Of a stretch of DNA of 64,000 bases, positions 27,646-60,823 are shown in pieces. Source of the stretch: Mesoplasma syrphidae. GTDB taxonomy: Bacteria; Bacillota_I; Bacilli_A; Mycoplasmatales; Mycoplasmataceae. A model generated the notes under the pieces. It saw only the letters and a list, made by a program, of their open reading frames with translations, had not been told where the DNA came from and ran no database searches. The stretch lies in the NCBI RefSeq assembly GCF_002843565.1, contig NZ_CP025257.1, positions 744,001-808,000 of the forward strand, given 5' to 3'. The translations under genes were made by a program, and so were the position numbers. The first letter of the stretch is position 1; each line of letters opens with the position of its first letter.

Positions 27646-27721
<76 letters not shown>

Positions 27722-53321: not shown

Positions 53322-54251
53322 TTATCGTTTAGACTTATCAAATGGAACCCCATTTGCTGCTGGCGCCCTCGATGATTTTGAAAAGATTACCATTGTAATA
53401 ATTGTAATTACAAAGGGTAATACTTTAAAGATTGTCGAACCAGTAATTAGTCAACTTCCTTCAGGAATAAATGACAAAGTTCCCAATCGTGATCCAAGTG
53501 TAAATAAGAAGGCAAAGATAACAACTCCCAATGAAATTCAATGAATTTTTCATTGTCCAAAAATCATAATTGCCATTGCTAAAAATCCCATTCCCATTGT
53601 TGTTCCGCCGAAGTTACCTCCCATAACAACTGTTGTTATCATAACTCCACCAGCTAAACCAGCTAAAACTCCAGAACAAAAGACTGCAATATAACGGTAC
53701 TTATTTACATTAACTCCTGCTGCATCAACCGCATTTGGGTTTTCCCCAACCATAGCATAACGCATTCCTTGTTTTGAAAACTTAAAGAATAACATTAAAC
53801 CAACTGCAATTAAAATTGCAAATATTAACCAAATTGGAATTACTGAACCAATGTAGATTGGAATGTAAAATGTTGAAATAACAGAACCTTGATCTCCAAA
53901 TATTCTTGATGTTGCAAAAAACATTCCTAAACCAAGAGCTAAAATGTTAATTGCAGTTCCAGAAATGATTTGATTTGATCTTAACGTTATTGACGGGAAG
54001 GCATGTAACATTGCAAAGATTCCTGTCATAAGTCCTGCAACTAGCACAACTCAAATTTGTGATCCATTATGTACATTTGATGAATCTTTATTAATTGATG
54101 ACCCAATCATAGCTACAATTAGCGCTCCAATTGTCATCATTCCCTCAATTCCAATATTAACAACTCCAGCTTTTTCACAAACGAGACCTGCTAGCGACGC
54201 TAATAATAAAATGGCACATAATGCTAAAGTATATTGTGTAAATCCACTCAT
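53322..54251 (-). CDS. BMP-type nucleoside ABC importer, second permease (309 aa)
   Basis: About nine membrane segments. Family blocks GVVNIGIEGMM near residue 30, GTAINILALG, and the cytoplasmic VGENPNAVDAAGVNVNKYR coupling region at about 175-195. Typical of NupQ/YufQ-type permeases that pair with a BMP lipoprotein. ATG overlaps the preceding permease stop (TAATG). Last gene of the four-gene operon under the riboswitch at 60.1 kb. Confidence 0.92.
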
Positions 54252-56983
54252 TACTGAACCTCCTTAATGTTTGGCATAAATTTAGCTGAAATTGTTTTAA
54301 TATAATTTTCCACTTTTTGGTTATAATCTTTTTCCAGTTTTAAGTATCTATCAAAGGTTTCCTGACCTGCATTTTGTTTTTGCTTAATTTCTTTGATTTT
54401 ATTTCTATAAGTTTTTTTGATTCTTATAATATCTGCTTTTGATTCATTATTGCCTTTATTTTCTGTCAGTTTTGCTGCTTTTTCTTTCTCCAATTTAATA
54501 ATATCTGCTTTTGATGTCAATGACATTGCTTGTTTAAGTTCTGCCAATCGAGATTTATAATCTGATTTATAGTCTAATAAATTCAATTTAGCTTCCTTTA
54601 AAATATTATTGTTAATATCATTGTTTATTGAAATTAAAATTTTGTCGACTTTCATTATTTTTTCAATTGCCACTTTCATTTTAATTTTCTGAATTTCCAA
54701 AGCAATTTTTACTTTTTTCATAACATACTGATTGTTATCATAACTGGCAAAAACTTTTTCTCCAAAAATTTTAACCAACTCCAAATATTGTTGTTCAGCT
54801 AAATTTATTAAATCATCAAAACTTTCTTCAATTTTTGATAGCTCACTAATTTCAGAAACCTCAGAACTTTTTATATCTATCAATTTATTTTCAGTTTTTA
54901 ATTTTAGCTCTTCAAGCAAATCAATTGCCGCTTTTAAATCTTGTTCCGATTTTGCTAAATCATATTTGGCTTGATGTTCAAGAACTGATTTATGCAACGC
55001 TTTAGTTTGTCTTTCAAACTGAGCATTCGCTTGAACAATTTTTTGCTCAAATTCTTTTTCAATTGCTATGATTTGGGTTTGCTCTTCTTTCAATACAGCT
55101 ACTTTATCTAAATGCTCTCTTTTTAAATGAGCAATTTGCTCCATAGCCTTGTTTTTTACTTCTTGCCTACTTGCCTTTAAGTTTTTAATTTGAACTTCGC
55201 TATGAGACTTGACCTCAATAATTTGATTTGACTTGTCAGTTTCGCTTAAACTGTCATTAAGTTTTATCAAATCAATTTGCAATTTAAGATCAGTTCTTAA
55301 AGAAACAATTTTATCTTTGATTTGACCAAGTTCTTTTGCCTGATCACCTTTAATTTGAACTTTTCCATTAATATATGCGTACTCAAGACTTAGTTCCCCA
55401 ATGGCTCCTTGTTTTCAAACTTTGGCAGCTGTGATTTGTTGATTTCTAATCTTTTTGACATTTCTTATTTGCGTTTTTTCAAACGCCACATAGTTTTTTG
55501 CTCGTTCTATTAAACTATCTTTAAATGATAAGTAATCCAATTTAATATCGGTGTACCCTTCTAAACTATTTGAATTAATTTTATTCATTTCAGTGTGTTT
55601 ACGATATTTTAGACCTCTTAATCCAGAAGTAATCTCTTTTTCAAGAACACCTTTTTTGAAAAGGTTGATTTGATTTTCAATTCTATGAATTTCCATTCGA
55701 CATGTTTCTTTAAAATCTTGGCTGTACAATTTAATTTCTTCATGCTTCATTGCCTCAATTGTTTTCGCATACTCAGGAGACTTTTTAGGAAACGCTATTC
55801 AATGACGATATTTTGCTTGTTGAGCGTTATACCCATTTAAAGTTATTTTGCGTGTTTTAGATTTCATTGTGTAATATTTCATTCGAACTCATAATGTTGG
55901 TGCAAAATTCATAAAAATTATTGAAATTGCAGCAAAATAAATTATAACTCCAAAAATTAATCCGCTAATTTGTGTAGGCATTCCAAACAGCCCTGATGTC
56001 AATGGACCTGCTGATTGAATTACTCCTCATAATCCTCCAACAAAGATAATTCCAAACGGATTATTGAAAGCTACTAATGAAACCGCAATAGCTTCATATC
56101 CAATTGTTGGCAAATTGTCAACAGTGAATGAAGTGTTTGGAGAAATAGTATACATATTAATAAATGCTGCTACTCCTGCGAAAGCTCCTGAAATTGTCAT
56201 TGCTTGAATAATTTTTGTTTTAACATTAATTCCCGCATACTTAGAAGCACTTTGAGAACTTCCTACTGCTTTTAACTTAAATCCAAAAGTTGTTTTTGCA
56301 AATAGTATTGCTACTATCAAAATACATCCTCCAGAAATTAATAACGGAATTAAAATATTACTTCCATTAATTGTAAAAATATCTGTTGGCATCATCTTAC
56401 TTGTTGATGGTACAGAATCATCAGCATACTGCTTAAATATTGAAAAGACAAATTTAAATAAATATCATACAATTCAATTCAGCATAATTGTTGAAACTAC
56501 TTCATGAATATTAAAGTAGGCCTTCAAAGCACCAGCAATAGCTGCTAGAAAAGAAGCTACCACCAAGCAAATTATAAAAGTTACAAATACCATGATTGGG
56601 GTTGCGGCAGTGTTTGTTCCAACAACACTCCAAAAAACAATTGTTGATATTGAACTCGCCGCTAACATTTGTCCAGCCATTCCAATATTGAATACTCCTG
56701 ATTTAAATCCAACCGCAATTCCAATACCAGCTATCATATAAACTGCAAATCAGTTCATTGTTTGTTCAACATATAATCCATTAAATGCTACTTTAAATAA
56801 CTGATAAAAATATTCAAACGGATTAACATTCTGCACCATTACGATAATTGCTGCAACCATTAAACCAGCCAAAATAGATAATAATGAGCCTTTAATTGAC
56901 TTTCCCTTTTGCTTAAACTCATTAGAAGTCAAAAACTCATTAGTTTTCTTCTTGGTTGATCAACTAAACTGCCTAAAATTCAT
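54251..56983 (-). CDS. BMP-type nucleoside ABC importer, first permease with very long coiled-coil tail (910 aa)
   Basis: One frame, ATG at 56983, only UGA(Trp) inside, TAA at 54251. Residues about 30-370 are an NupP/YufP-type permease (VFNIGMAGQML, HEVVSTIMLNW, coupling block VGSSQSASKYAGINVKTK). Residues about 375-910 are hydrophilic, Lys/Glu-rich and mostly coiled coil, with no further membrane segment. This makes the protein about 2.5 times the family's length. By the positive-inside pattern the tail is cytoplasmic. It overlaps the ATPase stop by 11 nt. The role of the tail is unknown. Confidence 0.9.
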
Positions 56984-58526
56984 TGCCAAGTACCTCTTCT
57001 TTCTTACCTGCCATTAATGCCCCAATATGTTCTCTACGAGCTCCCTTACCGGGAACTTGACCAACTAAGCGTCCATCATTAATAACAACAATTCTATCTG
57101 CTAGTGCCATAACCTCACTAAGCTCATAGGAAACCAATAAAATTGCTGAACCCGCTTCTTTTTCTTTTAATATTTCCGCATGAATGTATTCAATTGCTCC
57201 AATGTCTAGACCCCTAGTTGGCTGAACGACAACTAACAAATCGTGTTGTCTTCTAAGTTCTCGACCAACTACAGCTTTCTGTTGATTTCCTCCAGACAAT
57301 CCTCTTGCTATTGAAACTCCACCACGGGCACCGCGAACATCAAAATCTTTGATAATTTTTTGAGCATATTTTTTAATTTCAATTGTGCTTAATAAACCAA
57401 ATTTTGAAAATGGCTTTTTGCCGATTTCCTGAATAACAATGTTATCTTGTACGGTAAAGTCCAATAACATTCCGTATTTGTGACGGTCTTCAGGAATATG
57501 ACTCATTCCCAATTCGTAGCGCTTTGCAATTGAATATTTTAAAATATTTAGTTCCTTATAAACAACTCCACCTACTGCGGCTTTACTCAATCCTGTAATA
57601 ACCTCAACTAGCTCTTTTTGACCGTTTCCTTCAACTCCAGCAATAGCTACAATTTCTCCTGATTTGACTTGAACATTAAAATTTTCTAATGCATTAATTT
57701 TAGGATTATTTGATGACTTAACAGTTAAGTTAATAACATTCAAAATTGGTGTATCACTTTTTGGTTTTGAATATGAATTTTTGACTTCTACAAGTTTTCT
57801 ACCTACCATCGCTTCAGCAATTTCTGTTCCTTGAGATTGCTTTACATCAATTTCAGCAACTTTTTTTCCAGCACGAATAACTGTTGCAGTGTCAGCAATT
57901 TTTTTGATTTCCTCTAACTTATGTGAAATAAAAATAATTGTTTTCCCAGCAGCCTTCAGTTTTAACAAGATGTCCAGTAAACTATCAATTTGCTGAGGGG
58001 TTAGTACTGCCGTAGGCTCATCAAATACTAGAATATCGGCACTACGGTATAAAATTTTCAAGATTTCAACACGCTGCTGCATTCCAACAGAAATATTATG
58101 AATTTTCGCATCAAGGTCAACATATAATTCATATTCTTTCATAATTTTTGTTATTTTAGCTTTGATTTTTGTTTTATTTAAAAGCATATTATATGACGTA
58201 TCTTCAACGCCCAAAGCAATATTTTCTCATACAGTATTAACTTCAACTAATTTAAAATGTTGGTGAACCATACCAATTCCCAAACGGTTTGCCTTAATTG
58301 GATTAGTGATATTTTCAATTTTTCCATTAATAAATATTTCACCACTAGTTGGTTGATATAAACCAAATAAAATACTCATCAGTGTCGATTTACCGGCTCC
58401 ATTTTCACCCACAAGAGCATGAATTTCACCTTTTTTAACATTGAAATCAATGTTGTCATTTGCTACTAATGTTTCAAAAAAAACTTTTGTAATGTTTTTC
58501 ATTTGAATTGCATACTCATTTGCCAT
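56973..58526 (-). CDS. BMP-type nucleoside ABC importer ATPase (517 aa)
   Basis: Two ABC domains. The first has Walker A GENGAGKS (residues 40-47) and LVFDEPTAVL. Its signature reads ISVGMQQR. The second has GVEGNGQKE in place of a normal Walker A (no Lys-Ser/Thr) and an LSGGNQQK signature, the usual asymmetry of the NupO/YufO and RbsA type. The start at 58526 is chosen for GGAGG 6 nt upstream. UGA(Trp) between 58214 and 58227. It follows the lipoprotein gene by 23 nt. Confidence 0.93.
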
Positions 58527-58549
58527 TTTTTCCTCCGCCTTCATATTTA

Positions 58550-59971
58550 TTATTCAAATCCCTCATCGTCAACAGTCTGTAATCAACTTTTATCTTTATC
58601 ATAGAGCTCTTTAATTTTTAAAGCTGTTTGATAAATTTTTTGTCCTTGCATGTAATCATTGATATTTTCACCAGCACTTGCAAATGCCTGTATAATAATT
58701 TCAGCCACATCTAGATCTTCTTCTAAGCTTAAAATTTTTGCCTTGTCTTGATATTTAACATAAGTATGCTTTGATAAATTTTTTCCACCATAAGTGTCGA
58801 CAGATCAGTTAGAACGCGGTTTTGCAATTGTTCCATCGTCAATTGGAAATTCTTGCTCATTGTCAATGTCTTTTTTGTTAATCTCTATTAAATTATTATT
58901 TTTGTCGACAACCTTTTTTAGTGATCTTGAGCGTCGTAATTCATCAGTAATGGCTTGCTCTAAGTTTTTAACAGCACTTGTTATGAAGCGACCTTCATAA
59001 CTTGGAAATGATTCAACTTGGTCTACATCAACTCCAATTATATAAGGATTATAACTTGCCCCTGAAAAACTTAACACATCAGAAATTTGAGGACCAGCAA
59101 CCGGGAAAATAATATCTGCTCCATTTTGTGTTATCAGACGATCCAAAATTCCTGATGAGGTTGCTCCTCCTAATGCAAATGATTGTGAAAACCATCTTGC
59201 ATCTGTTGTACCTTGAACATTTGTTGCGGAAATTGGTTGATATTTATTTTCCTTAGCGTCATAGTTATTTGCCAAAACAATTTCCTTTACTTTGCCGCTA
59301 TCAATTTGTTCTTTGTGAACCAAATTAAAAACTTCCATTCCTAAAATTAATCCTCACATGTAATTATCTACTGAGTATTTTGATGACATTCCAGCAAATG
59401 TCCCAATAGCAATTTTTCCATCCTTATTTGAATCACCTTGAAACTCATTTTGATTTGCTCAAATCGATGCATCATACCCAGCAGCAAAACCGGCCAATTC
59501 AGAATTGAACTGAATGCTAATAACATTTTGATTTTTCCCATTTGAATAATCAGCAACTCCATCTGCTAAAACTATTGTTTTACCATTCATCAATTTCGAA
59601 GCTGCATCAATTGTCCCAACATGAATAAATCCCGATAATACCATTGCATCTGTTTCTTTAAAAGCAGCCATTTTATATCCGCTAATCAAATCAGCAGCTG
59701 TATGACCTGAAGATTCAACATAGTTCCCAGTGCCATCATATGATATATCATTAACTTCATTTCAGTCATCAAGCTCATTTGCATATTTTTTAATTGAATT
59801 GTATGACCCTTGATTAAAGGATTTATCGCTTACATTCCCGCCATCTGTTACTAACAAAACTCTTTGCCCATTAGGTCCCTTTGCGTAGCTTGCTGGTATA
59901 CAAGAAATAACACTAGTAGATGTCACAATGATAGCTGACGCAGTGTATAAAGATAACATAAGTTTTTTCAT
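58550..59971 (-). CDS. BMP-family nucleoside-binding lipoprotein (473 aa)
   Basis: ATG behind AAAGGGAAG. Signal MKKLMLSLYTASAI and lipobox VISC with Cys24, followed by the BMP/PnrA fold: VLLVTDGGNVSDKSFNQGSY, GFIHVGT, GTFAGM and PYIIGVDVDQVESF. Two inserts rich in charged residues (about 380-400) and a C-terminal extension make it longer than usual. It captures nucleosides outside the membrane for the ATPase and two permeases encoded downstream. Directly behind a purine-type riboswitch, which supports the nucleoside assignment. Confidence 0.93.
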
Positions 59972-60014: not shown

Positions 60015-60124
60015 CAAAAAAAGTTTTCTGTTGTTAGACAGAAAACTTATAAGCTTATACTTACAGTCCCTTCTTTGGCAAGGGGTGGAGTCAGTAGCCC
60101 ATTTGCTACCCTATGTAAGTTTTC
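60015..60124 (-). promoter_or_regulatory. purine-family riboswitch, 2'-deoxyguanosine (2'-dG-I)-like, with terminator switch
   Basis: Aptamer at 60059-60120 on the minus strand. P1 is a 7-bp pairing of ACTTACA with TGTAAGT. P2 is GTAGC/GCTAC with loop AAATGG. The junction reads TGACTCCACC. P3 is CCCTT/AAGGG with loop GCCAAAG, and GACT closes back to P1. The loop TGG can pair with CCA of the other loop, as in purine aptamers. The core from GGGTAGC to GGGCTACTGAC matches, from memory, the Mesoplasma florum 2'-dG-I aptamer, including C in place of the conserved U51. The expression platform is an 11-bp terminator (60021-60031 with 60038-60048) followed by U. Its 5' arm (GAAAACTTA on the plus strand, 60041-60049) can instead pair with 60116-60124, which includes the P1 5' strand. 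Ligand would therefore turn the importer operon off. Confidence 0.85.
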
Positions 60125-60142
60125 TCATATTAAGTTATTTTT

Positions 60143-60148
60143 AGTATA
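60143..60148 (-). promoter_or_regulatory. candidate -10 box of the nucleoside importer operon
   Basis: TATACT on the minus strand, about 22 nt before the riboswitch P1. No clear -35. A start just upstream of the aptamer would suit the switch. Confidence 0.4.
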
Positions 60149-60371: not shown

Positions 60372-60524
60372 TTAGCAATCCTTTGAACATGTAGATTTAC
60401 ATTCGACACATGTGTCACATGAATTAGCGCAAGTACATACAGAATTTGCATTTTGTTTGCACATACAGTTCTCACATTTCATATTTTGATTATTACAGCA
60501 TGCAGAGCTCATATCTTTACTCAT
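60372..60524 (-). CDS. Cys-rich metallothionein-like mini-protein (50 aa)
   Basis: The ATG at 60524 follows AGGAGG by 9 nt; an upstream in-frame ATG has no such site. 12 of 50 residues are Cys (9, 10, 17, 20, 22, 30, 32, 36, 39, 42, 46, 50), in CxxC, CxC and CC patterns, with no aromatic residue in the mature core. Not a signal peptide or membrane protein. The composition is that of metal-thiolate proteins such as metallothioneins. No named family recognised. Own strong ribosome site and terminator indicate a real single-gene unit. Confidence 0.75.
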   Translation of the reverse strand: MSKDMSSACCNNQNMKCENCMCKQNANSVCTCANSCDTCVECKSTCSKDC

Positions 60525-60823
60525 GATGTTTTTCCTCCTCATTAAAGAATCATAATAATATGTTACGTAGAATAAATTCAAACTGAAATACTCTACATTT
60601 TCATATTATCACTTATTTTTGCTTTTATGATTAAAGGCAAATAAAAAAACAAATATATGAAAAAACCAAAACAGTAAATATTAAAAATAGTTTTGTACTT
60701 TTGCGTATTTTTTTAACCAACAAGCTATAACATCTTATTCAGGCTTTTCATTTTTAAAATTTAAAAAATTTATTGTAGTTGATTTGGCTACGATGATTGA
60801 TAACAAAAAAACAAAATCCTAAA

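Follow-up and report, generated by a model that had tools for sequence, protein, structure and literature searches.

The window analyzed here is the whole 64,000-nucleotide stretch, and all coordinates are positions within it; the host genome (G000) has 908,214 bases, and its genes were read with TGA as tryptophan. On the minus strand an aptamer (60059-60120) and an intrinsic terminator with an 11-bp hairpin and a U tract (60015-60048) precede an importer operon. The first gene encodes a Bmp/PnrA-like nucleoside-binding lipoprotein of 473 aa (58550-59971; Pfam PF02608, E 2.9e-14), and it is followed by an ABC importer ATPase containing two ATPase regions (56973-58535, with a provisional start codon; PF00005, E 1.4e-44), a 912-aa permease with a long C-terminal extension (54251-56989; PF02653 at residues 74-353, E 1.9e-36) and a second permease of 309 aa (53322-54251; PF02653, E 6.3e-33), all on the minus strand. 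A preliminary description of this DNA had named a BMP lipoprotein, an ATPase and two permeases at this place, and the Pfam matches confirm these assignments. The roughly 550 extra residues that follow the permease domain of the 912-aa protein are apparently a long, charged helical sequence.

In the model of the related JCVI-syn3A, the corresponding importer is taken to transport ribonucleosides as well as deoxyribonucleosides (PMC6609329). The host genome contains three deoxynucleoside-kinase family genes and two purine nucleoside phosphorylase family matches, so that imported 2'-deoxyguanosine could be either used or split. At the second BMP gene of this genome (297 kb) no aptamer was detected.

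Just upstream of the leader is a small cysteine-rich open reading frame (60372-60581, minus) with its own terminator at its end. Read from an internal ATG it would encode about 50 aa, and the product is metallothionein-like in look, with no Pfam match. Elsewhere in the window, sub-threshold Rfam Plastid-ycf2 matches at 657-731 and 27648-27721 on the plus strand lie antisense to tRNA genes and are artefacts of tRNA-like sequence.

A conserved aptamer of the 2'-dG-I type

The 2'-dG-I covariance model, RF01510, matches positions 60120-60059 of the minus strand over its full length (1-63) with 50.1 bits (cmscan; E 1.5e-7 for 64 kb), bearing out the earlier proposal of a 2'-dG-I-like aptamer; this score is 0.9 bits below the gathering score of 51. 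The generic Purine model, RF00167, does not return the locus in a search of its own genome even at E<=10, although that search places four other sites above the cut-off. The 2'-dG-II model (RF03165) finds nothing in the host genome at E<=10, which rules out membership of that class.

The minimum free energy fold (-19 kcal/mol) is the three-way junction with complementary loops that had been described, with P1 at 60120-60114/60065-60059, P2 at 60110-60105/60098-60093 and P3 at 60084-60080/60072-60068. The P2 and P3 loops (L2 AAAUGG and L3 GCCAAAG) are shortened and can make a kissing contact of GG (60100-60099) with CC (60078-60077), as in 2'-dG-I; most relatives have one more nucleotide in L2. 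The stability of the aptamer fold is unremarkable alone (z -1.1), but reaches z -2.8 with the terminator included and z -4.0 for the terminator by itself. In M. seiffertii, a member of the same genus (G055), the aptamer is identical at 62 of 62 positions and the terminator stretch at 42 of 45; the promoter and leader (60177-60121) are 86% identical and the start of the coding region 85%, compared with 71% for the DNA further upstream.

The aptamer belongs to a set that we refer to as class B, defined by U22/C51/A52/C74 (in guanine-riboswitch numbering) on the 2'-dG-I scaffold. In an alignment of 14 distinct class B sequences, eleven pairs are changed on both sides and 92% of cells are paired, a covariation that exceeds 500 of 500 shuffles and every slid version. 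The score just under the gathering threshold and the short L2 might be taken as signs of a decayed or accidental purine-riboswitch look-alike without function, but we give this reading almost no weight in view of the identity with M. seiffertii, the class B covariation, an intact terminator and antiterminator, and the recurrence of class B before the BMP operon in seven genomes. A chance match is ruled out by the E-value, covariation and conservation, and the aptamer is real and conserved.

The ligand-binding pocket

The pocket residues are U22 (60113), C51 (60087), A52 (60086) and C74 (60066) on the minus strand, and the preliminary description was right that C stands at the position equivalent to U51 and that C74 is kept. 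Its further statement that the core is almost the same as that of the M. florum aptamer holds for the scaffold, with 52 identities in 68 alignment columns, but not for the pocket: the M. florum nrdF aptamer (taken from G010) has C22/C51/G52/C74, and C22 is replaced here by U and G52 by A. Positions 22 and 52 exclude a plain copy of that aptamer and make this a distinct variant rather than a near-copy. Measured against the 2'-dG-I pocket, C31(22)/C58(51)/G59(52)/C80(74), it has the expected residues at 51 and 74 and U and A at 22 and 52; it departs from the guanine-I pocket (U22, U51, C74) at position 51.

All of the residues of the 2'-dG-II pocket (U22/C51/A52 and the ligand-pairing C) are present, so that the window aptamer resembles 2'-dG-II in its pocket and 2'-dG-I in its scaffold. 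The reported first shell comprises C31, C58 and C80 (equal to 22, 51 and 74) in 2'-dG-I and U22, C51 and C74 in 2'-dG-II; A52 accompanies U22 and C51 in the latter, and C at 51/58 is critical for recognition of the nucleoside over the base (PMC8872408).

Class B among related genomes

RF01510 and RF00167 were used to search 60 genomes of the family; 134 aptamers were extracted along with the genes that follow them and sorted by positions 22, 51, 52 and 74 using a strict J2/3 pattern. These comprise 26 of the 2'-dG-I proper type (C22/C51/G52/C74), 17 with C22/U51/G52/C74, 16 of class B, 55 of the guanine type, 18 with U74 (adenine-type and odd relatives) and two with an ambiguous pocket; the guanine- and adenine-type counts are incomplete because the RF00167 set was sampled. 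Of 298 sampled genomes of the order, 33 had an RF01510 match, and all 33 belong to the family.

The class B aptamers are distributed over eight genomes in four genera and score 46-72 bits with RF01510. Seven precede a BMP importer and four a ribonucleotide reductase, and the remainder are found ahead of ABC importers of other kinds or of DHH or nuclease genes; one (L073, G001 5783) precedes a possible PD-(D/E)XK nuclease followed by ABC importer genes. A terminator filter found none in six of these 16 leaders, among them one (G053 10480) with a plain hairpin and then a broken U run, and the nrd leader of the window genome.

The survey also revealed clusters of 2'-dG-I-type aptamers (L101, L102 and L106 in G008 at 36-61 kb, L045 in M. 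florum at 30-36 kb, and L123), in which each aptamer precedes a lipoprotein gene and the end is formed by a solute-binding protein and an ABC ATPase. Other 2'-dG-I-type aptamers (L043, L107, L113 and L086), in three Mesoplasma genomes and G059, precede an importer with a phosphonate-binding-like protein (PF12974), the substrate of which may be nucleotide-related.

Association with ribonucleotide reductase

For several kinds of operon the residue at position 51 goes with gene context, and BMP operons have both C51 and U51. C51 is present at all 12 aptamer-bearing reductase operons, eight with aptamers of the M. florum type and four of class B, whereas U51 is found at 13/13 guaA and 5/5 hpt-like leaders and U74 at 6/6 purA leaders; the guaA, hpt and purA labels come from reading the protein sequences, and Pfam was applied to the proteins labelled reductase, BMP, DHH or importer. 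The association of C51 with reductase has a hypergeometric probability of 1.6e-6, a value that ignores shared ancestry, though the association is seen both in class B and in the M. florum type.

The window genome has just one further class B aptamer, at 228805, which precedes NrdF (PF00268, E 9.8e-80), NrdI (PF07972) and NrdE (PF02867). It shares 56 identities in 64 columns with the window aptamer, and J2/3 is identical. Class B also precedes reductase genes in G053, G055 and G059, and its placement before nrdFIE of the same genome is the strongest pointer to what would be a deoxynucleoside ligand. The leaders of nrdFIE in the window genome (L049, G000 228805) and in M. seiffertii (L063, G055 35212) have 13-15 nt of antiterminator-like pairing and no clear terminator within the stretch examined, and their gene starts are more than 200 nt downstream. 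In G059 the class B aptamer (L087, 95227) precedes a single reductase large subunit of 823 aa, which looks like a class II (cobalamin-type) enzyme.

These contexts also bear on whether the aptamer could be a more general G-nucleoside sensor on a general nucleoside importer, responding to guanosine and 2'-deoxyguanosine about equally in the manner of 2'-dG-III. The 2'-dG-III aptamer binds the two with similar affinity (PMC9295807), U22 and A52 are as in guanine riboswitches, and the importer is likely to be broad for nucleosides; moreover, the ability of 2'-dG-I to disfavour guanosine may depend on C56 (PMC8872408), which is U49 here. We nonetheless consider such a sensor unlikely, as a DNA-precursor signal fits better with class B aptamers before ribonucleotide reductase in four genomes.

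BMP operons and their paralogues

The preliminary description regarded a nucleoside importer as a new gene context for this class, a claim that is weakened for the scaffold as a whole, because M. florum and relatives have U51 scaffold aptamers before BMP operons. The leaders of BMP genes carry class B aptamers in seven instances, 2'-dG-I proper in one (the Mesoplasma genome G013, with C51), C22/U51/G52 in seven (including M. florum) and guanine-type aptamers in nine. What appears to be new is the C51 pocket at a BMP importer.

In three genomes two BMP paralogues differ in their leaders, one having a class B aptamer and the other an aptamer of the guanine type (L072 in G001, L076 in G002, and L061 and L062 in G054), and in G001 and G002 the aptamers are in tandem, with the second between two BMP genes. 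In a tree of 24 BMP lipoproteins, which has some long branches, the class B and U51 copies group within species (M. lactucae G001, G002 and G054), a pattern that gene conversion between paralogues could also give.

These sister paralogues, together with Spiroplasma-like relatives that have guanine-type aptamers before BMP genes, invite the reading that the window aptamer is an ordinary guanine-sensing switch in which C51 is neutral, and U22, A52 and C74 are indeed those of guanine riboswitches. However, C51 is common to all 16 class B aptamers and absent from the guaA and hpt-like leaders. In guanine riboswitches U51 is in contact with N3/N9 of the nucleobase (PMC9295807), and the single change U51C is enough to shift the preference of such a riboswitch to dG (PMC8872408). 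An ordinary guanine switch is therefore quite improbable.

The expression platform

A likely promoter -10 hexamer, TATACT, lies at 60143-60148 on the minus strand, and transcription is expected to start near 60136. The hexamer is inferred from sequence reading and conservation, since a promoter scan gave no consensus match on the minus strand. The antiterminator is formed by a 5' segment, AGAAAACUUA (60116-60125, minus), which overlaps the 5' side of P1, and a 3' segment, UAAGUUUUCU (60040-60049, minus), which is mostly within the 5' arm of the terminator. The exact pairing described earlier between P1 and the terminator is present, with none of 200 shuffles equalling it, but it is 10 nt long rather than nine (60125-60116 with 60049-60040). 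The M. florum nrdF leader has a like arrangement with 11 nt.

In folds of the growing transcript, computed with thermodynamic models that take no account of ligand, tertiary contacts or kinetics, P1 is favoured between 60058 and 60043, the antiterminator between 60040 and 60028 (-25.3 kcal/mol, compared with -22.2 when P1 is imposed) and the terminator between 60025 and about 60004; RNAs longer than this fold otherwise. The order of P1, antiterminator and terminator is shared with the M. florum switch, in which the full-length RNA is locked OFF and the ligand decides within a brief phase of transcription (PMC12268651, PMC5838219). The start codon (59971) comes after the terminator, so termination offers the simplest account of the control, and the terminator and antiterminator architecture agrees with the plain off-switch that had been proposed, in which ligand would presumably lower expression.

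Discussion

We propose that the importer operon is probably controlled by a transcription-terminating OFF riboswitch that has U22/C51/A52/C74 on a 2'-dG-I scaffold and would sense 2'-deoxyguanosine or G nucleosides. It is most likely an OFF switch, and its pocket would be a new one for the 2'-dG-I scaffold; elsewhere in the same genome this variant is also associated with ribonucleotide reductase. This explanation draws on the RF01510 match, the class B covariation, the aptamer at nrdFIE of the same genome, the C51/U51 split between contexts, the published effects of position 51 on ligand choice, the stepwise folding order as in the M. florum switch, the kinase and phosphorylase genes and the JCVI-syn3A importer analogy. 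Confidence is lowered by the score 0.9 bits under the cut-off, by the guanine-type aptamers at homologous BMP operons and by the nrd leader of the same genome with its lack of a clear terminator. It is lowered too because the class B ligand and the importer substrate, like the direction of control, are deduced from computed features (aptamer, covariation, terminator, antiterminator and gene context).

In the proposed mechanism, ample 2'-deoxyguanosine, or the G-nucleoside pool, would bind in the junction, with C74 pairing the guanine face of the ligand and C51 its sugar edge. P1 would thereby be stabilised and the antiterminator prevented from forming, so that the terminator would form and the nucleoside importer operon would not be made. 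With little ligand present, the segment overlying P1 would pair with the 5' arm of the terminator and transcription would go on. The aptamer would be a member of a regulon that also holds nrdFIE, and we propose that uptake and synthesis of DNA precursors would thus be turned down together.

A broader interpretation, to which we would give an even chance, is that class B forms a natural deoxyguanosine-sensing variant in its own right, in control of a regulon for DNA precursors that comprises reductase, the nucleoside importer, ABC importers of other kinds, and genes for a DHH phosphodiesterase or nuclease. Where nucleoside-binding lipoproteins are duplicated, position 51 would in some species be C for one copy and U for the other, such that one paralogue answers a deoxynucleoside and its sister a nucleobase, sometimes within one operon.

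Riboswitches for DNA nucleosides have been described as few and narrowly distributed (PMC9971707). If these assignments are correct, the class B set would carry a class best known from M. florum into more Mesoplasma-like genera, provide a naturally occurring pocket that is intermediate between those of guanine and 2'-dG aptamers, and link the sensing of a DNA building block to uptake as well as synthesis. The C51/U51 pairs of BMP paralogues would amount to a natural experiment on one base and ligand choice.

Comparison with known systems places the window aptamer closest in scaffold to 2'-dG-I (RF01510) of the M. florum nrdF leader, with which it shares the short GG/CC kissing loops, C51 and C74, the terminator and antiterminator layout and, elsewhere in the window genome, the reductase context. 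It differs in having U22/A52 where the M. florum aptamer has the C22/G52 pair and U49 where that aptamer has C, as well as a nucleoside importer operon downstream and a score just under the family cut-off. With 2'-dG-II of the Bacteroidetes (RF03165) it shares first-shell U22, C51 and A52 and the ligand-pairing C (PMC8872408), but the loops, phylum and genes are different and RF03165 has no match at E<=10. Guanine-I riboswitches (RF00167) before nucleoside transporters, such as B. subtilis yxjA, have the same architecture and U22/A52/C74 and the same OFF control of nucleoside uptake as is proposed here (PMC9756952); the window aptamer has C51 rather than U51 and short loops of the 2'-dG-I type, and RF00167 misses the locus. 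Finally, the C22/U51/G52 aptamers of the M. florum BMP and guaA leaders share the scaffold, and one of them precedes the homologous BMP operon, but they carry U51 instead of C51, and a nucleobase would accordingly be the expected ligand for these relatives.
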